NCBI GenBank assembly: GCA_003483345.1
Contig: DMWH01000139.1
Span: forward strand, 1 to 6,238
Direction of reading: 5' to 3'
Source: Clostridiales bacterium
GTDB lineage: Bacteria > Bacillota > Clostridia > Tissierellales > Sedimentibacteraceae
DNA: 6,238 nt
Program-made: the position numbers and the translations under genes
Notes under the pieces: model-generated
Told to the model about the DNA's origin: nothing
Database searches by the model: none
Seen by the model: only the letters and a program-made list of their open reading frames with translations
In this document: positions 133-5,486 of the stretch, piece by piece
How the letters are laid out: every line of letters starts with the position of its first letter
Numbering within the stretch: the stretch's first letter is position 1

Positions 133-162
133 GAATATTAATAATTATATTTGCGTATCATA
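133..162 (+). promoter_or_regulatory. Bipartite sporulation-type promoter candidate
   Basis: GAATATT (133-139), a 14-nt spacer, then CGTATCATA (154-162). The -35 half matches the published sigma-E consensus KMATATT perfectly. The -10 half shares the CnTAnnAT framework with CATACANT but has G at the second position. Four other intergenic sites in the window have the same two boxes at the same spacing. It precedes the 25-codon ORF at 193 by about 30 bp, right for a short leader carrying GGAAG. Confidence 0.5.
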
Positions 163-192
163 TTAATGAACACATTTAAACGGAAGATATCA

Positions 193-270
193 ATGAATAA
201 TATATTTGATAACAATGAAGCTGCAATCACTCAACTTAAACGTGACAAACATGCTTTGCTTGAGAGTTAA
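193..270 (+). CDS. Candidate 25-aa small protein
   Basis: ATG 193 to TAA 268-270 encodes 25 residues beginning MNNIFDNNEAAI, hydrophilic, with a basic stretch (LKRDK) and ending in LLES. A GGAAG Shine-Dalgarno-like element (182-186) lies 6 nt before the ATG, and a promoter-like element ends at 162, so promoter, leader, RBS and ORF are in register. Strong hairpins follow at 335-379. No signal peptide or membrane segment is visible, and no family was recognised. It could be a genuine sporulation-expressed microprotein, or the surviving N-terminus of a decayed gene, since no continuation is seen in the same frame after the stop. The short length is the main reason for caution. Confidence 0.35.
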   Translation: MNNIFDNNEAAITQLKRDKHALLES

Positions 271-327
271 TAGAACTACAATAGAATGTAAAATTATATC
301 TTATTTTTTATCTTTAATAGAACCACA
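267..327 (+). repeat. Direct repeat pair TTAATAGAACYACA
   Basis: TTAATAGAACTACA (267-280) and TTAATAGAACCACA (314-327) are 14-mers differing at one base, 47 bp apart. The first begins at the stop of the 25-aa ORF. This could be a small local duplication. No function is evident. Confidence 0.4.
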
Positions 328-334
328 GTGGGAA

Positions 335-382
335 GGGAAGGAGCCTTTAGGCTCCTTTCCCAGATATACAAGCATATCTTTT
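335..382 (+). terminator. Tandem hairpins, possible terminator
   Basis: The first hairpin pairs GGGAAGGAGCC (335-345) with GGCTCCTTTCCC (350-361) around loop TTTA, with one bulged base. The second pairs AGATAT (362-367) with ATATCT (374-379) and runs into TTTT (379-382). The strong GC stem lacks its own U-tract and the following U-run is short, so termination is plausible but not certain. It may end the transcript of the 193-270 ORF. Confidence 0.4.
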
Positions 383-465
383 ATATACCCCCGACATCAG
401 GATCAAAATAACAGCCTTTAAAATAAACTACCCAATGCGTCCACTTCACACTGTCAAATGGCCAT

Positions 466-492
466 AAAAAAAACCGCCGCTTGAATGCGGCG
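466..492 (-). terminator. Intrinsic terminator, minus strand
   Basis: On the minus strand, CGCCGC (492-487), loop ATTCAA, GCGGCG (480-475), then one G and eight T (473-466). This is a textbook rho-independent terminator. It lies about 430 bp past the helicase stop and only about 40 bp past a minus-strand promoter candidate, so it may end either the helicase transcript or a very short RNA. Confidence 0.75.
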
Positions 493-530
493 TGAAAAAT
501 GGATGTAAAAATGTAGACAATAAAAAGATA

Positions 531-560
531 TATAATACGCAGTTTAAATACATGATATTC
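531..560 (-). promoter_or_regulatory. Bipartite sporulation-type promoter candidate
   Basis: On the minus strand, GAATATC (560-554), 14 nt, CGTATTATA (539-531). Box sequences and spacing match the yyaC and 5457-5486 copies. A start site near 523 would give a transcript of about 58 nt before the terminator at 466, with no ORF that has an RBS. Confidence 0.45.
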
Positions 561-569
561 TGACGATAT

Positions 570-599
570 TTTATAGCACAAATCAACTTTTATATACAA
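570..599 (-). promoter_or_regulatory. Possible sigma-A promoter, minus strand
   Basis: TTGTAT (599-594), an 18-nt spacer and TATAAA (575-570) on the minus strand. It would start a transcript near 563 that ends at the 466-492 terminator, about 100 nt. In such AT-rich DNA the match may be chance. Confidence 0.25.
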
Positions 600-690
600 G
601 GTAATGTTAATACTCATGTAGGGGATAAATCGTGCGTTAAAACGCATTTAAAAGCCTCACAAGGAATTAAAACATTGTTAAAAATTGTTT

Positions 691-720
691 TGTCGCAAAA
701 TGGCTCTTTTGCGACATTTT
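691..720 (+). terminator. 10-bp perfect hairpin with short T run
   Basis: TGTCGCAAAA (691-700), loop TGGCTC, TTTTGCGACA (707-716), then TTTT. The stem is too long and perfect to be accidental. On the plus strand it can act as a weak terminator, but no plus-strand gene is visible upstream of it. It could instead be a structured element in the helicase 3' region or a dispersed palindromic repeat. Confidence 0.4.
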
Positions 721-816
721 ACCTCTGTGACTAAAGAGACCTATAGGCATTGGAATTTCAACGTTCTTTGAATTATATATTGCTTATATATCCAAGAAAT
801 TAGGCATATTTGATTA

Positions 817-930
817 TTATTCATTCAAATCATATAAATTTACATCTGATTCTGCATAAAATTCAAAAATCATACAAAATTTTCTCTTAAATTTCTCAAT
901 GATTATCCCGTAAAAAATCTTATACGCCAT
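817..930 (-). CDS. Possible 37-aa ORF overlapping helicase stop
   Basis: ATG at 930-928 lies inside the last helicase codons (11-bp overlap) and the frame runs 37 codons to TAA 819-817. The protein starts MAYKIFYGIIIEKF and ends AESDVNLYDLNE, with a hydrophobic/basic first half and an acidic tail. A stop-start overlap of this kind is typical of translationally coupled genes. However, only an A-run precedes the ATG instead of a Shine-Dalgarno sequence, and an open frame of this length can occur by chance in AT-rich DNA. No family recognised. Confidence 0.2.
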   Translation of the reverse strand: MAYKIFYGIIIEKFKRKFCMIFEFYAESDVNLYDLNE

Positions 931-3133
931 CTTTTTTATAAAGTTTTATTAAATTATTCTTGCAGCAAAAATCAAATGATAAACTTTTTATGGTATTGTC
1001 CTCAAACATTACGTGCAAAATTCCTTCCTCGAATTTCTTTATAAGGCCGACACCCAGTTTTTTATGTTTTATGTAAATATTTTGATTATCAAAGTATTTC
1101 AGACTTTCCTTAAGTTTTTCAGTTTCATTTATGCCGAAATATTCCTCCGGCTTTTTTATGTTAAAAAATTCTATAGCATCTCTGTGCAGGTCTTTTTCTT
1201 CGGGCTTATTTAAATTTTGTTCTTTCTCCTGCTTTTCTCTTAACTTGTCAATGTCCATAACCTTTTTTCTCATTTCAAGTTTTTCCATAACATCATAAAC
1301 TTCGTCAATAAACAAGGAATAATAATTCTTGATGCTGTAAAGGACAATTTCCTTTCTGGCTCTTGTCATGCTTACATAGAAAAGCCTTCTTTCCTCTTCC
1401 ATTACCCTTCTGTTTCCCCTTTGAGCTTCGTCAAAGCTTGAATATGTCGGAAAAGTTCCGTTGACGGCATCTATTATATAGACCTTATCCCACTCAAGGC
1501 CCTTACTGGAATGAGAGGTTGACAAAACAACCGGGTTATTATCCTTATTGTAAACTGCATTCTGCATTATGAGCTTTAAATTTTCAATCTTTTCCCTTAA
1601 TTCTTCGACGGTCTTCAGGCCCTGCGACAATAACTTAAGGGTAGAAAAGATTATATAATTGCTTTTATTAAGCTTATTGTATTCAAGACCGTTTTTAATA
1701 ATATTAAGCATTTCTTCGGGAGTTTTGTTCTTCAATGCGGCAAAATCCCTTTTCATGGCCATAACATTGTCTTTCTGATAGTCGGTAATCTTTAAAAGCA
1801 TCATCCTATCAAATATGGGAAGGTCCTGATTCATGAATTTTATAGCTTCTATCATATTTTTTGATATGAAGTACCCGCTTAATTTGTAATAAATTTTTTC
1901 AAAGGATTTAATGTCCTTATTATTCAAGCCCACATTGATTATGGAAAACACATCATCAAGCATCCAATGGTCGAAGAAATAATTTTTAAAGCCCTTTAAT
2001 TTAAACGGCACATGGGCTTTTGACAATAAATCCACCAGAGACACTGCCGATATATTGTTTCTATATAAAACGGCTGTGGTAATATTTGTATTTCTGTATT
2101 TAAGCTTACCTGCAAGGTCCAGAAGCTGGTCTGTCTTATCCTCCGCTGTAGTGATTATGATTTCTTTTCCGGACGGGTTTTCGGTAAACATCTCCTTATT
2201 AAACCTTACTTCATTTTCTTTTATAAATTCGTTGCAAGCGGAGACAATCTCCGGGGTTGACCTGAAATTCTGTTCCATATATAAAACTTTCACATCTTCA
2301 TAGGTATCTTTTATGCTCAGCAAAAATTCAGGATAAGCCCCTCTAAACCCGTAAATGGACTGGTCATCATCAGCCACGTAAAAAACATTCCTGCTCTTGC
2401 TTCCGAGAACCCTTATAATTTCATGCTGGACTTTTGAAGTATCCTGAGCTTCATCAACCTGAATGAACTTGTACTGGTATTTCTCCAGAATTTTTCTGTC
2501 CTTTCCCAAAATATCAAGGCACATGGTAAGCATATCGTCATAATCTATAAAGGAATTTTTCCTCTTATATCTCTCATATTTCTCAAAAATTTCCTCAAAA
2601 TTCTTTATACCCAGATTATACTTCCAGAATTCGTTTTTCTTAAGCATCATATTTTTGACAAAGCCAACCTTGTTTGCCAAATCTTCTATTTCCTCATCGG
2701 TTATGAAGGCATCGTTCACTATCCTGTAAATCTGTCTTAAAACTTTTGTTTTCGTCGGTCTTTCCCCTGCTTTGTCATCTTTTTCCTCTATAAGCGTTAC
2801 ATTTATTCTATGTTTATAGTTATATTCCCTCAGTATCGAATAAGCAAGGCTGTGAATAGTTGAAAACCTTACATTGTATTCGCTGCCAAATAACTTCTCA
2901 AATCTTTCAGCCATATCCTTAGTAGATACTTTTCCGAATGTAACTGTAAGTATATCTTTGGGGTTTATGCCTTGGTCTATCATGTAAGCGGTCCTGCACA
3001 GGAGAGTTTGAGTTTTGCCTGCTCCGGGAACTGCTAACACAAGCGTATGTCCATAAATATTTATAACGGCTTCCTTCTGTTGTTCTGTCAGGTTTATGCC
3101 ATGCTCTTCCCTTAATTTTTCAAAGAAATCCAA
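920..3133 (-). CDS. UvrD/PcrA-type SF1 ATP-dependent DNA helicase
   Basis: A 737-aa superfamily 1A 3'-5' helicase expected to unwind DNA in repair or replication-conflict resolution. Visible motifs in order: Q motif LTEQQKEAV (15-23), Walker A PGAGKT (36-41), Ia (61-78), Ib FSTIHSLA (90-97), IDYDDM (196-201), Walker B VDEAQDT (226-232), III DDDQSIYGFRGA (255-266), IV QNFRSTPEIV (288-297), V HSSKGLEWDKVYI (541-553) and VI RRLFYVSMTRARKEI (582-596). After a charged linker (about 615-670), residues 688-732 (HKKLGVGLI..FEDNTIKSL) resemble the Tudor-like C-terminal domain of PcrA/UvrD that contacts RNA polymerase. All catalytic motifs are intact, so it should be active. The start is TTG at 3133, nine bases after AAGGAGG (3149-3143), and the frame is closed upstream by TAG with no ATG. 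PcrA or a paralogous UvrD-like helicase cannot be told apart here, so no symbol is given. Confidence 0.96.
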   Translation of the reverse strand: MDFFEKLREEHGINLTEQQKEAVINIYGHTLVLAVPGAGKTQTLLCRTAYMIDQGINPKDILTVTFGKVSTKDMAERFEKLFGSEYNVRFSTIHSLAYSILREYNYKHRINVTLIEEKDDKAGERPTKTKVLRQIYRIVNDAFITDEEIEDLANKVGFVKNMMLKKNEFWKYNLGIKNFEEIFEKYERYKRKNSFIDYDDMLTMCLDILGKDRKILEKYQYKFIQVDEAQDTSKVQHEIIRVLGSKSRNVFYVADDDQSIYGFRGAYPEFLLSIKDTYEDVKVLYMEQNFRSTPEIVSACNEFIKENEVRFNKEMFTENPSGKEIIITTAEDKTDQLLDLAGKLKYRNTNITTAVLYRNNISAVSLVDLLSKAHVPFKLKGFKNYFFDHWMLDDVFSIINVGLNNKDIKSFEKIYYKLSGYFISKNMIEAIKFMNQDLPIFDRMMLLKITDYQKDNVMAMKRDFAALKNKTPEEMLNIIKNGLEYNKLNKSNYIIFSTLKLLSQGLKTVEELREKIENLKLIMQNAVYNKDNNPVVLSTSHSSKGLEWDKVYIIDAVNGTFPTYSSFDEAQRGNRRVMEEERRLFYVSMTRARKEIVLYSIKNYYSLFIDEVYDVMEKLEMRKKVMDIDKLREKQEKEQNLNKPEEKDLHRDAIEFFNIKKPEEYFGINETEKLKESLKYFDNQNIYIKHKKLGVGLIKKFEEGILHVMFEDNTIKSLSFDFCCKNNLIKLYKKDGV

Positions 3134-3165
3134 TGATCCTTTCCTCCTTATTTTATTCTATATTA

Positions 3166-3195
3166 TATAATACGCATTTTATTATTATTTTATCA
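3166..3195 (-). promoter_or_regulatory. Weak sixth copy of the bipartite element
   Basis: On the minus strand, TGATAAA (3195-3189), 14 nt, CGTATTATA (3174-3166). The -10 half is identical to the strong copies and spacing is preserved, but the -35 half keeps only the ATA core. It overlaps the -10 of the sigma-A promoter at 3187-3214, which could give the helicase two promoters. Confidence 0.25.
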
Positions 3196-3214
3196 TTGTT
3201 CATAAATCTGTCAA
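3187..3214 (-). promoter_or_regulatory. Sigma-A promoter of the helicase
   Basis: On the minus strand, a consensus -35 TTGACA (3214-3209), a 16-nt spacer and -10 TAAAAT (3192-3187) preceded by TG at the extended -10 position. It implies a leader of about 45 nt before the TTG start at 3133. Confidence 0.6.
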
Positions 3215-3238
3215 AATAAATAAACAAAATCCGGCATA

Positions 3239-3268
3239 GAATATATTTTTTGCACTTTGCGTATTATA
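3239..3268 (+). promoter_or_regulatory. Bipartite sporulation-type promoter of yyaC
   Basis: GAATATA (3239-3245), 14 nt, CGTATTATA (3260-3268), about 30 bp before the yyaC ATG. The boxes and spacing equal those at 5457-5486 and 531-560. The downstream gene belongs to a sporulation-specific family, which supports a sporulation sigma factor. An alternative sigma-A reading (TTGCAC 3250-3255 with TATTAA) is poorer. Confidence 0.55.
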
Positions 3269-3298
3269 TATTATTAAAGAGAAAAAGTGAGGTTAATA

Positions 3299-3832
3299 AT
3301 GGAAAAATTCTTGGTTCATTACAAAGACATGAATGTGCCGGACAAAATAGGAGAGTATTTGAAAGAACACATGAAAGGGCGGACTGCCATAGTATGTATC
3401 GGGACAGACAAATGTATAATAGACTGTTTGGGTCCCCTGACAGGTACATTCCTGTTGGAAAAGAATATTTCAGCAGATGTCTACGGAACCTTAACAGATC
3501 CTGTTCATGCTCTCAATATTCACCGGATTGTAAAATTAATTGATAAGAAAAAATATGACACAGTAATTGCCTTGGATGCCTGCTTTACAAGTTCAAAAAA
3601 AATCGGGGCCATAGAAATAGCATCCGGCTCTATCTTCCCCGGAAAGGCAATAGGGAAAAATTTACCGAAGGTTGGAGACATTTCAATTATTGGAGTAATG
3701 GAAGAGGTAGAAATTGATTTTAAACTGTTAATGAATATAGTAAGGCTTTCATTTGTATATGAAATGGCACAAATTTTAAGTAGCGGAATTGTTTTGGCTG
3801 AAGAAAAGGTTAAAAAAAATAAACTTGCATAA
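3299..3832 (+). CDS. yyaC: Sporulation protein YyaC, GPR-like putative spore protease
   Basis: A 177-aa protein recognised as the YyaC family (DUF1256), found in endospore formers and related to the germination protease GPR in a HybD-like fold. Its substrate is not established. Family landmarks: CIGTDKCIIDCLGPLTG (33-49), YGTLTDPVHALNI (62-74), a central strand with LDACF (92-96), GSIFPGKAIGK (110-120) and GDISIIGVM (126-134). There is no signal peptide or membrane segment, so it is cytosolic, and the length is normal for the family. The start is ATG 3299; a GTG at 3287 in the same frame is part of the Shine-Dalgarno GTGAGG (3287-3292) and is rejected. It is a single-gene unit with a sporulation-type promoter at 3239-3268, and its stop codon lies inside the terminator stem. 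Divergent from the helicase. Confidence 0.95.
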   Translation: MEKFLVHYKDMNVPDKIGEYLKEHMKGRTAIVCIGTDKCIIDCLGPLTGTFLLEKNISADVYGTLTDPVHALNIHRIVKLIDKKKYDTVIALDACFTSSKKIGAIEIASGSIFPGKAIGKNLPKVGDISIIGVMEEVEIDFKLLMNIVRLSFVYEMAQILSSGIVLAEEKVKKNKLA

Positions 3833-3853
3833 TTATTTTTATGCAAGTTTTTT
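3812..3853. terminator. Bidirectional terminator between yyaC and zinc protein gene
   Basis: A 12-bp perfect stem (3821-3832 with 3839-3850) and loop TTATTT. The plus strand continues in a T-run to 3853, and the minus strand continues into eight T (complement of 3812-3819). It serves both convergent genes and contains the last three sense codons and the stop of yyaC. Confidence 0.88.
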
Positions 3854-3861
3854 GTATTACC

Positions 3862-4122
3862 TCATGCCTCATCAATACATCCGCATGATATAAGCTGCCC
3901 GCCGCATACGGGACATCTTTCGGTGTCGCATCCTACATGATGATAGTGGCCTATTTTGGCTCCACAGTCTCCACACCTGCTGTTATTATCGGCTCCTTCC
4001 AGCCAGTCTCCTTTGTCTCCGACTTTTATGGGATCATACTCCTTGCCGTTGTGAATAATGGAAACTTTTACGCACCCGTTAGCTGTAAGCATTTCCTTAC
4101 TACAGATATTGCACTTCGACAT
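3862..4122 (-). CDS. Small Cys/His-rich zinc-binding protein
   Basis: An 86-aa protein that probably binds more than one zinc. Potential ligands: CNIC (C4, C7), C17, CGDC (C50, C53), H59, H61, H62, C65, CPVC (C70, C73), C80 and C82. The C-terminal part [24 protein letters not shown] has the look of a conserved small-protein family, but I cannot name it or assign a function. Between the knuckles lies a hydrophilic stretch (residues 20-48), so this is not a plain rubredoxin or ribosomal zinc ribbon. ATG 4122 has an excellent RBS, AAGGAGGAG (4136-4128). Upstream is a leader of up to 160 nt with a promoter candidate at 4289-4318, a 16-bp palindrome and two tiny ORFs. It ends at the terminator shared with yyaC. 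Confidence 0.85.
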
Positions 4123-4134
4123 TTTAACTCCTCC

Positions 4135-4200
4135 TTATTTTTTATTATACATAGGATAATAAATCCTTAGTATTACTTTCTTAATTTTTTTCTTTTTCAT
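4135..4200 (-). CDS. Possible 21-aa basic leader peptide
   Basis: ATG 4200 to TAA 4137-4135 encodes 21 residues starting MKKKKIKKVILR, very basic. Its stop codon overlaps the Shine-Dalgarno of the zinc protein gene (TAAGGAGG), the same stop-in-RBS arrangement as at the gene junctions at 4930, 5179 and 5694. It directly follows, in frame, the TAG of a 9-codon ORF (4230-4201) that has GAGGAAG five bases before its ATG. It has no RBS of its own and is rich in A-tract codons, so chance is a real alternative. Confidence 0.2.
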   Translation of the reverse strand: MKKKKIKKVILRIYYPMYNKK

Positions 4201-4255
4201 CTAAGAAATTTTAAAAGATTTATTGTCCATAAAAACTTCCTCATCTCCTTCTGTT

Positions 4256-4271
4256 AGTGTAAATTTACACT
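4256..4271. promoter_or_regulatory. 16-bp perfect palindrome, operator candidate
   Basis: AGTGTAAATTTACACT is perfectly self-complementary over 16 bp. It lies between the divergent zinc protein and 4395 genes, about 10-25 nt downstream of the start site inferred for the minus promoter at 4289-4318. That is a typical position for a dimeric repressor operator. I do not match it to a known regulator. Confidence 0.45.
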
Positions 4272-4288
4272 CCTTTTTAGATTTGTCT

Positions 4289-4318
4289 TATAGTACGCTT
4301 TTCGTATTTATTTTATTC
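4289..4318 (-). promoter_or_regulatory. Bipartite sporulation-type promoter candidate
   Basis: On the minus strand, GAATAAA (4318-4312), 14 nt, CGTACTATA (4297-4289). It is slightly divergent from the other copies but has the same spacing. Transcription would start near 4282 and run through a leader of about 160 nt into the zinc protein gene. Confidence 0.4.
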
Positions 4319-4358
4319 CGTTTCATGTAATTTATTAGACAATATTCCCTCTATAATA

Positions 4359-4367
4359 TGATATAAT
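4359..4367 (+). promoter_or_regulatory. Extended -10 promoter of the 4395 gene
   Basis: TGATATAAT is a perfect extended -10 (TGnTATAAT) about 28 bp before the start codon. A TAGACA at 4336-4341 resembles a -35 but its 20-nt spacer is long, so the extended -10 probably carries the promoter. Confidence 0.5.
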
Positions 4368-4394
4368 AAAATCAAAAAAAAGGATTGATGTTTT

Positions 4395-4625
4395 TTGAAA
4401 ATAATGAACGAGCCCATAAAAGTCATGGCCGTTTTTGAAAAGAACGGCAAAATTACCCCAATTAAATTCAGGCTTAATGATCAGGTTGTAAAAGTACAGA
4501 AAATACTAAAAACATACGAAACAGGCAACAGATATGTGATGTTTGTATGTGAACATAACGGAAAAGACATTTATGAATTAAAATATGATATTAAAGAGAA
4601 CCTCTGGTATCTTTACAAAAAATAA
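4395..4625 (+). CDS. Conserved-looking 76-aa protein, DUF6504-like
   Basis: A 76-aa soluble protein rich in beta-strand pattern: VMAVFEKNGKITPIKFRLND, then a basic valine-rich strand, a central YVMFVCEHNGKDIYELKYD and a closing NLWYLYKK. The order (strand, F-R-x-ND/WKD turn, hydrophobic strand, YEL strand, final W-x-L) resembles small beta-barrel proteins of the DUF6504 type, which in other bacteria lie near DinB polymerases. This is a resemblance from memory and the function is unknown. The start chosen is TTG 4395, ten bases after AAAGGA (ending 4384). ATG 4404 in the same frame is 19 bases from it, too far, and ATG 4388 is out of frame with a short product. It is a single gene with its own sigma-A promoter, and its stop (4623-4625) runs into the shared terminator. 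Confidence 0.85.
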   Translation: MKIMNEPIKVMAVFEKNGKITPIKFRLNDQVVKVQKILKTYETGNRYVMFVCEHNGKDIYELKYDIKENLWYLYKK

Positions 4626-4650
4626 AAAAGAGCTTTAAAAGCTCTTTTTT
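4624..4650. terminator. Bidirectional terminator
   Basis: An 11-bp stem (4624-4634 with 4640-4650), loop TTAAA, with A-tract and T-tract on the two arms so that both strands end in U-runs. It lies between the convergent 4395 and 4649 genes and overlaps both stop codons. Confidence 0.85.
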
Positions 4651-4915
4651 ATTCTGCTATCACGACCAAAACAGGAAATATTTTTTTGTCAAAATTCTTG
4701 GAGTTTATTAAGCTCCCCGCTAAAATTGTATTGTCATATTCCTTCCGGTCCATTATTCTGAACTCCTGAACCTTATAGTGGTCTGTATTTCCGTCGAAAT
4801 CAACAGAAAAGATATTATCTGTATAAATTTTCTTTACGGCATTCTCATGGTATCTGTAAACTTCGGAATAGTTATATACCCCTTTAAGTTTTTCCTTAAG
4901 TTCATCTATTCTCAT
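4649..4915 (-). CDS. Hypothetical protein, 88 aa
   Basis: An 88-aa protein of unknown function. The first 15 residues (MRIDELKEKLKGVYN) look helical. The middle (about 31-55) is a mixed polar segment with alternating hydrophobics (NIFSVDFDG, YKVQEFRIM), and the C-terminus is a hydrophobic strand (FPVLVVIAE). There is no signal peptide, cysteine cluster or recognisable motif, so it is probably a small cytosolic alpha/beta protein. The start ATG 4915 is well supported: AAGGAG (4930-4925) is nine bases upstream and overlaps the TAA stop of the previous gene, implying translational coupling. It is the last gene of a three-gene unit (5373 to 4649) and ends in the bidirectional terminator. Confidence 0.82.
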   Translation of the reverse strand: MRIDELKEKLKGVYNYSEVYRYHENAVKKIYTDNIFSVDFDGNTDHYKVQEFRIMDRKEYDNTILAGSLINSKNFDKKIFPVLVVIAE

Positions 4916-4929
4916 GTGCAGCCTCTCCT

Positions 4930-5169
4930 TTAGAAACTTTTCAAAAGATATTCCGATTTAATTGAAATTTCGTAGAAGTTGCCATAATCGTCCATGTAAA
5001 TGTCTTTAGTGTCCGTGCTTTGGGTTTTTCTGTATCCCTCATCGATATGTTCTTCGGTAAGCCTTTCTTTTTCTTTTTCCGCATCGGCTATAAACTCAAA
5101 CGGTGTTACATAGATTTCTTTTTCTCCTGAAGCCAAAATGTTTAATTCGGTAACAATGTAAATCTCTAT
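4930..5169 (-). CDS. Hypothetical protein with non-canonical start, about 79 aa
   Basis: The function is unknown. The nearest conventional start is TTG 5136 (68 aa), but no Shine-Dalgarno precedes it. A perfect AGGAGGG (5180-5174) lies further upstream, and 5 nt after AGGAGG comes ATA (5169) in frame, giving N-terminus (M)EIYIVTELNILASGEKEI. Those added residues look coding: a strand with the IYIVTE pattern leading into GEKEIYVTPFEF, then a helix DAEKEKERLTEEHIDEG and a closing strand NFYEISIK. The overall strand-strand-helix-strand layout loosely resembles small DUF7336-like proteins. I annotate from ATA; ATT 5163 is another option. If the codon was once ATG, a point mutation may have weakened expression. 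The only internal Met (residue 59) is too late. Middle gene of the three-gene unit, with TAA overlapping the next RBS. Confidence 0.72.
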   Translation of the reverse strand: MEIYIVTELNILASGEKEIYVTPFEFIADAEKEKERLTEEHIDEGYRKTQSTDTKDIYMDDYGNFYEISIKSEYLLKSF

Positions 5170-5173
5170 AATT

Positions 5174-5181
5174 CCCTCCTA
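5174..5181 (-). promoter_or_regulatory. Shine-Dalgarno fused to the upstream stop codon
   Basis: TAGGAGGG on the minus strand: TAG (5181-5179) ends the 64-aa gene and AGGAGGG (5180-5174) is the RBS of the next gene. No ATG, GTG or TTG follows in the correct frame at normal spacing. The position argues for initiation at ATA 5169. Confidence 0.7.
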
Positions 5182-5373
5182 TTCGTATTCTATTCTGTCT
5201 AAGTCCCTTATTACTCTTCCCGGATCAAAAGTGTCTGTAATCATTGATAAATCACAAATCATGTTTACCAATAATTTATACGCTTTTGCCCCTGCTCTCG
5301 TGAATCTTCCTTCTACATTGAAAGCATTTCCTTTTAAGCCAAAATATTTTTGTAGAATTTGTTCTAAATCCAT
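5179..5373 (-). CDS. Hypothetical protein, 64 aa
   Basis: A 64-aa protein, not recognised. It looks largely helical: MDLEQILQKYFGL, then a short glycine/asparagine turn (KGNAFNVEGRF), a helix with GAKAYKLLVNMICDLSMI (about 28-45) and an acidic end DPGRVIRDLDRIEYE. There is no signal peptide; one cysteine. Start ATG 5373 has AGGAGG four bases upstream. It is the first gene of a three-gene unit behind a bipartite sporulation-type promoter (5457-5486) with a leader of about 77 nt. Its TAG stop is part of the next gene's RBS, and the two genes are in the same reading frame, so readthrough of one TAG would fuse them. Separate translation is the simpler reading. Confidence 0.8.
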   Translation of the reverse strand: MDLEQILQKYFGLKGNAFNVEGRFTRAGAKAYKLLVNMICDLSMITDTFDPGRVIRDLDRIEYE

Positions 5374-5430
5374 ATTTCCTCCTAATTTTTTCGAAAACTT
5401 AAAAGTTCCTCCTCCCTCTTGTTTTTATGC

Positions 5431-5447
5431 TTAAAAGCACCTTTTAA
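5431..5447. repeat. Inverted repeat at start of leader
   Basis: TTAAAAG-CAC-CTTTTAA is a perfect 7-bp inverted repeat with a 3-nt centre, at about +3 to +20 of the transcript expected from the 5457-5486 promoter. It could be an operator or a 5' stabilising stem. No regulator is assigned. Confidence 0.35.
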
Positions 5448-5456
5448 TGTTTAGGT

Positions 5457-5486
5457 TATAATACGTAATTTTAAGAATTTATATTC
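5457..5486 (-). promoter_or_regulatory. Bipartite sporulation-type promoter of the three-gene unit
   Basis: On the minus strand, GAATATA (5486-5480), 14 nt, CGTATTATA (5465-5457). Both boxes and the spacer length are identical to the yyaC promoter. It lies between the terminator at 5495-5520 and the first gene at 5373, exactly where a promoter is required. Confidence 0.55.

Follow-up and report, generated by a model that had tools for sequence, protein, structure and literature searches.

Promoter-like sites of a probable megaplasmid in Sedimentibacteraceae and a candidate SigE-related sigma factor encoded on the same element

The subject of this report is a bipartite promoter-like motif that recurs in a window of 6,238 nucleotides (the whole stretch of DNA that was analysed) from a Clostridiales bacterium of the Sedimentibacteraceae. 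The window is the entire contig C273 of a genome, G000, that comprises 2,264,991 bases in 300 contigs and is 82% complete. The explanation that we favour, and consider probable, is that the copies in the window are members of a family of 44 promoter-like sites, nearly identical to one another, on what is likely one conjugative megaplasmid, and that they would be read by a sigma factor derived from SigE and encoded on the same element. Promoter function of the sites, and their recognition by the sigma factor encoded on another contig, C164, are inferred from the sequences. The original prediction had described five intergenic copies and assigned them to one regulon, probably that of a sporulation sigma factor with a variant -10 preference.

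The motif and the contigs that carry it

All five predicted copies, in each of which precisely 14 nt separate GAATAWN from CGTAYYATA, are present in the window at the positions and on the strands listed further below, as is a degenerate sixth copy with TGATAAA (3166-3195, minus strand); the 13-mer TGCGTATTATATA is found, as predicted, at 529-541, 3164-3176 and 3258-3270. That this is more than chance is borne out by simulation: Markov models of orders 1 to 3, with 300 windows drawn from each, produced neither the pattern nor the 13-mer. CGTAYYATA alone occurs six times in the window, compared with a mean of 0.1-0.3 (maximum 2) in such windows.

Over the whole genome, the strict pattern GAATAWN-N14-CGTAYYATA gives 24 matches and GAATWW-N15-CGTANNATA gives 44, with none in the reversed control in either case. 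All 44 sites lie on nine of the 300 contigs (C3, C79, C135, C164, C196, C266, C273, C274 and C284; 99,288 bases in total) and none on the remaining 291; CGTAYYATA was also absent from ten further control contigs, one of them wholly masked. The consensus of the element is GGAATA-N16-CGTAWTATA. In the profile of the 44 sites, a T-rich lead is followed by GGAATA (the extra G precedes the -35 box in 39 of 44), an A/T-rich spacer, TG (T in 39 and G in 30 of 44) and CGTAWTATA. Within the set first scanned, the -10 box reads CGTA in 52 of 61 G000 sites.

The motif also occurs in G015, another genome bin belonging to the genus of G000. A matrix built from the 44 sites was applied at two thresholds. 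At 12 it gave 63 sites on the nine contigs, 37 across 66,564 bases of G015 contigs and none in 67,220 bases of other contigs; at 8 the numbers were 64, 39 and 2, respectively. The gap between GAATAW and CGTANNATA is 15 nt in 42 cases on the G000 contigs, with none at 8-14 or 16-23 nt, and on the G015 contigs it is 15 nt in 21 cases, 13 nt in one and 16 nt in one. When pairs of boxes were counted without guidance, the motif ranked first in both bins (z 38.9 in G000 and 28.5 in G015, the shuffle maxima being 9.1 and 8.7). Chance or low complexity as the source of the motif is excluded by the reversed controls, the simulations and the fixed spacing.

With the -10 box widened to C[AG]TA..AT[AGT], 89 sites are obtained, 57 in G000 and 32 in G015, near-identical ones common to both included. 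Outside open reading frames (ORFs) of at least 90 amino acids, which make up 76% of the G000 contigs, lie 87 of the 89; 82 are followed within 260 nt by a stretch resembling a ribosome-binding site and a start codon, at a median of 49 nt, a distance given without a chance control. The genome scan thus upholds the proposal of one regulon upstream of genes.

Amongst 27 genomes of the family, 25 of them of the genus, the motif is present in number only in G000 and G015, with one site each in two others. A stricter motif, TTGGAATA-N14-TGCGTAWTATA, was used for wider scans. It matched six stretches of the genome collection (a scan that may omit records of G000 itself), four of which are G015 contigs and two in Bacteroidota, and it gave two matches in viral contigs. 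One phage-like IMG/VR record of 185 kb, 3300030330_004956 (G027), has 17 copies of GAATAAA-N14-CGTANNATA at 94-164 kb, 16 of them on one strand. Only three relatives of the element's proteins, at 24-27% identity, were found in the four 20-kb stretches of it that were examined. A phage origin was set aside because these relatives are few and distant, and the similar sites of G027 are likely to be convergent.

The gene content of the contigs, called from a protein family scan of 20 proteins, resembles that of Bacillota megaplasmids. The G000 contigs encode a topoisomerase, a CHC2-type primase, SSB, DNA polymerase III alpha, a RecD2-like helicase, PhoH, a ribonucleotide reductase of the B12-dependent type, a T2SSE (Tad-type) ATPase, a replication-relaxation protein and a ParA-like ATPase. 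The motif-bearing G015 contigs add VirB4/TraG-like and VirD4-like proteins, PrgI, an M23/SLT protein, gyrase A and B, and RecJ. The VirB4/TraG-like, VirD4-like and PrgI proteins are those of conjugation (T4SS) genes, none of which turned up in assembled form on the scanned G000 contigs, relaxases not having been sought. The nearest relatives of DnaE, at 45-50% identity, are those of plasmids from P. thiaminolyticus, Brevibacillus, Geobacillus, P. polymyxa and Aneurinibacillus. For the helicase encoded in the window, the closest plasmid relative is on Alkaliphilus pB6464 (42%), followed by Aneurinibacillus, P. polymyxa and Brevibacillus records, and yyaC is also found on pB6464; this links the window contig to such plasmids independently of the motif. 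Seven records of Clostridioides difficile plasmids of 127-136 kb (H94-H98, H101 and H102) carry a yyaC-like gene whose product is 31-34% identical to that of the window, so that a plasmid-borne yyaC is not unique to the element.

There is also evidence of mobility. C79, C196 and C3 match G015 contigs at 98.8-99.8% identity over up to 13 kb, whereas in the spoIVA and spoIIIAA regions the identity between G000 and G015 is 81-82%, which argues that the element is mobile and was recently transferred. Taken on their sequences, the nine contigs are likely to be one replicon, and the element is likely to be a large conjugative megaplasmid.

The candidate sigma factor, the host promoters and other explanations

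The gene at C164:9445-10074 encodes a sigma factor of 210 amino acids with regions 2 and 4, which is the only match to PF04542 on the nine contigs; C164 also holds 13 of the 44 sites. Its best match in congeners, at up to 41%, is the product of the gene beside sigG, that is, SigE. No such sigG-adjacent match was found in G000, the sigE of which is apparently unassembled. In a tree of 22 sigma proteins, the element's sigma forms a clade (99/97) with two metagenome relatives (64% and 57%) and six plasmid sigmas; this plasmid-type clade is sister to SigE (96/93), the joint fork having 85/77. A search of 249 genomes of the order, and the scans of genome and viral contigs, gave no further close sigma. 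Adjoining the sigma gene, at C164:10179-10409 on the minus strand, is a relative (45%) with region 2 only, which may be a decayed duplicate or a regulator.

The best plasmid relatives of the sigma and of DnaE lie on overlapping sets of megaplasmid records. The neighbourhood of these sigma genes includes Tad genes and TlpA and, further out on several of them, ClpX, PrgI and VirB4-like genes. The C164 gene is flanked by a thioredoxin-like gene (identified by eye) and Tad genes, in an order that differs from that of the plasmids. Ordinary sigE is found with spoIIGA on the R. albus, P. cellulosilyticus and B. velezensis records, and the Monoglobus sigE is without such neighbours.

A comparison with host promoters was made for spoIVA, spoIIID, spoIID and spoIIIAA, the dependence of which on SigE is assumed here by extension from B. 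subtilis. Rows dropped from these loci, mostly fragments or weak hits, were L240, L242 and L244-L246 (spoIVA), L271-L276 (spoIIIAA), L301 (spoIIID) and L325-L328 (spoIID); 24 spoIVA rows were used, of which 23 yielded a region, and G000 is represented only in spoIVA and spoIIIAA. The spoIVA upstream regions read TTTGGAATAAA ... CATATAAATT. GGAATA-N16-CATA is present in 14 of the 23, that of G000 included, and in 19 of 23 when N15-17 is allowed. The other host pattern, GTTCTA-N15/16-CATA, is found in 23 of 24 spoIIID and 21 of 23 spoIID regions. The layout of the element's sites is accordingly of the SigE type with a variant -10 box, as had been proposed, the G of the element standing in place of an A in the host spoIVA promoter. 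In none of the host patterns does CGTA take the place of CATA, the bare word CGTA occurring somewhere in 4 of 94 regions, and neither GGAATA-N16-CGTA nor CGTANNATA was found in any of the 94 regions upstream of these four genes in the family.

It had further been proposed that the regulon is one of host sporulation. This fails because the genome scan found no enrichment at sporulation genes. A host sporulation regulon was rejected on three counts, namely no sites off the nine contigs, none in the 94 sporulation regions, and 25 of the 27 family genomes without sites in number.

The methionine numbered Met124, after the B. subtilis SigE sequence, is present in all seven SigE rows of the alignment, and its place is taken by T, S, F or L in all nine plasmid-type rows. 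Met124 is reported in older work to contact the -13 base, a point on which a literature search returned nothing. The change of G for A at about -13, together with a sigma lacking Met at this place, suggests that the two sets of promoters would be read apart.

Several observations weigh against the explanation favoured here. The nine contigs were collected by the motif itself, and the window contig and five others had no match of the near-identical kind among the G015 contigs compared. The host promoter patterns were drawn up once the alignments had been seen, and none of the 24 spoIIIAA upstream regions fits either of them. The tree program flags long branches. A search of pieces of the P. thiaminolyticus, Brevibacillus and Alkaliphilus plasmids did not recover the exact motif. 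G015 has 32 sites, yet no close sigma is present in its assembly. Neither the sigma gene nor its two upstream neighbours has a site, the best score being -4.2 compared with at least 18 for true sites, so that another sigma factor is likely to start its synthesis. Finally, in the set first scanned, CATA is found at 7 of the 61 sites of G000 and at 7 of the 34 of G015. The change of letter in the -10 box is thus a preference, and some cross-talk of the element's sites with SigE is possible. At one place in G015 (C139:18458-18642), three tandem copies of the CATA type lie within about 190 nt ahead of one gene.

Some of these points would also suit an arrangement in which the sites are read by way of another factor encoded on the element, be it a different sigma or an activator or repressor acting with the housekeeping sigma. 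The restriction of the sites to the element, the sites without an assembled close sigma in G015 and the lack of a site at the C164 sigma gene are all compatible with it, and the -10 box does hold TATTAT, one mismatch from TATAAT and 17 nt after GAATAW. However, GAATAW is not a housekeeping -35 box, no palindrome is present, the host spoIVA promoter shares the layout in 14 of 23 genomes, and the C164 sigma is the sole candidate of its family on the nine contigs; we regard such a factor as unlikely. Were the sites instead read by the host SigE (or SigK), the element would be expressed in the mother cell during sporulation. The shared -35 box and spacing of the spoIVA promoters, the gene for a YyaC-like spore protein in the window and the CATA-type sites speak for this, but it is quite improbable given that CGTA-type sites are absent from the rest of G000 and from the 94 sporulation regions, and that the 25 other family genomes have no sites in number.

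It might also be supposed that the nine contigs are a binning artefact, derived from a different organism or from a phage whose ordinary promoter this would be. G000 is fragmented and incomplete, and G027 has its 17 sites of similar form. Against this, the element is found in a second bin of the genus, its gene content is plasmid-like, the G027 protein relatives are three in number and distant in the stretches examined, and four of the six stretches matched in the genome collection are G015 contigs. We give such an artefact very little weight.

If the sites are indeed read by the element's own SigE-derived sigma, the following mechanism may be envisaged. Another sigma factor would initiate synthesis of the plasmid sigma, which would direct host RNA polymerase to the sites ahead of many of the element's operons. 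Operons for replication, transfer, nucleotide metabolism and small proteins would in this way be switched on together. In their -35 box and spacing the sites agree with one class of SigE-type promoter of the host, with G for A at the second base of CATA (about -13).

Copies in the window and the genes they face

The features of the window that bear on the motif are as follows.

133-162, plus strand: copy 1, GAATATT-N14-CGTATCATA (motif scan)
193-270, plus strand: ORF of 25 amino acids, a possible microprotein, 30 nt 3' of copy 1 (translation)
466-524, minus strand: predicted RNA of about 59 nt from copy 2, free of ORFs and ending in a G+C hairpin and a T run (sequence, fold)
531-560, minus strand: copy 2, GAATATC-N14-CGTATTATA (motif scan)
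920-3133, minus strand: UvrD-like helicase, 737 amino acids (ORF, protein family and plasmid-relative searches)
3166-3195, minus strand: degenerate copy, TGATAAA-N14-CGTATTATA, directed toward the helicase gene (matrix score 18.6)
3239-3268, plus strand: copy 3, GAATATA-N14-CGTATTATA (motif scan)
3299-3832, plus strand: YyaC-like DUF1256 protein, 177 amino acids, starting 30 nt past copy 3 (Pfam)
3862-4122, minus strand: small Cys-rich protein, 86 amino acids, starting 166 nt past copy 4 (ORF; no Pfam family)
4289-4318, minus strand: copy 4, GAATAAA-N14-CGTACTATA (motif scan)
4649-5373, minus strand: three small ORFs (64, 68 and 88 amino acids) 3' of copy 5, the first starting at 83 nt (no Pfam family)
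5457-5486, minus strand: copy 5, GAATATA-N14-CGTATTATA (motif scan)

The other targets named in the original prediction hold: copies do face the gene for the YyaC-like DUF1256 protein, that for the small Cys-rich protein and the small-protein unit, the Cys-rich protein, which had been called a zinc protein, being without a Pfam match. The start codon of the helicase lies 32 nt beyond the degenerate copy. Copy 2 has no ORF of at least 35 amino acids with a ribosome-binding site in front of it, and a terminator is predicted about 60 nt downstream; Rfam gave no match at the gathering score anywhere in the window, the predicted 59-nt RNA included. A further gene, at 4395-4625 on the plus strand, encodes a small protein of 73-76 amino acids; it possesses a terminator of its own (4621-4653), and the motif is absent upstream of it. 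A TATAAT-like box near 4352 suggests that it may use the host housekeeping sigma.

Relation to known systems

Related DnaE and sigma proteins occur on megaplasmids of Bacillota, for example P. polymyxa pSC2, Geobacillus pGspE55-1, P. thiaminolyticus SY20 and those of Brevibacillus halotolerans and Aneurinibacillus. These resemble the element in that the sigma gene is near Tad and TlpA genes, and a primase, SSB, topoisomerase, RecD-like helicase and ribonucleotide reductase are each present on at least one of them. They differ in that the pieces examined did not yield the exact motif and in that the order of genes about the sigma gene is not identical. Geobacillus subterraneus pGspE55-1 (L216, L338 and L341) has a weak kindred set, six intergenic copies of GAATA-N16-TGTA with the spacing and the G of the window's element. 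Four are in the part used for discovery and two in the rest, any other spacing being seen once per part; the statistics are weak, the top box pair, GAAT-N17-TGTA, having z 7.4 where shuffles gave 6.0-7.7. We give slightly less than even odds to the wider proposal that a sigma clade split from SigE entered the core gene set of conjugative megaplasmids throughout Bacillota, its -10 specificity having been altered in plasmid lineages to give a private channel, insulated from host sporulation, on which a whole megaplasmid runs.

If the C164 sigma reads the sites, one factor would control a large share of the genes of a conjugative megaplasmid, and expression across the plasmid, when it occurs and what it costs the host would become open to direct test. 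The system would also be a natural experiment in the change of specificity of a developmental sigma, in which one -10 base and one candidate contact residue differ and the -35 box is the same. In practice, the motif is specific enough to pull the contigs of such an element from metagenome bins.

The sporulation sigma SigE is the closest chromosomal sigma (about 41%), and the -35 GGAATA and N16 spacing are as at host spoIVA; the element differs in having CGTA rather than CATA at -10, a changed Met124 place and targets confined to itself. Plasmid-encoded sigma factors have been termed rare in a report on SigN (ZpdN) of the large B. subtilis plasmid pBS32, the regulon of which is predominantly plasmid-restricted and includes replication and nucleotide genes (PMC6751061). 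The C164 sigma is likewise encoded on the element to which the promoter set described here is confined. However, the promoters of SigN, for example TTTACGTTT ... TAGATA, are unlike the element's sites, SigN activates its own gene whereas the C164 sigma gene has no site, and SigN has been called a possibly new subclass whereas the element's sigma groups beside SigE (PMC6751061). Phage-encoded sporulation-like sigmas are also carried by mobile elements of spore formers. Work on these tested their effect on host sporulation genes and describes the use of phage promoters by one as hypothesised; the predicted targets here are, by contrast, the element's own genes (PMC9429907). Literature searches on plasmid sigmas returned SigN and the phage cases, and no title on the present system. 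What differs here from these precedents is the descent from SigE with an altered -10 box, the setting of a probable conjugative megaplasmid and the breadth of the set of sites.

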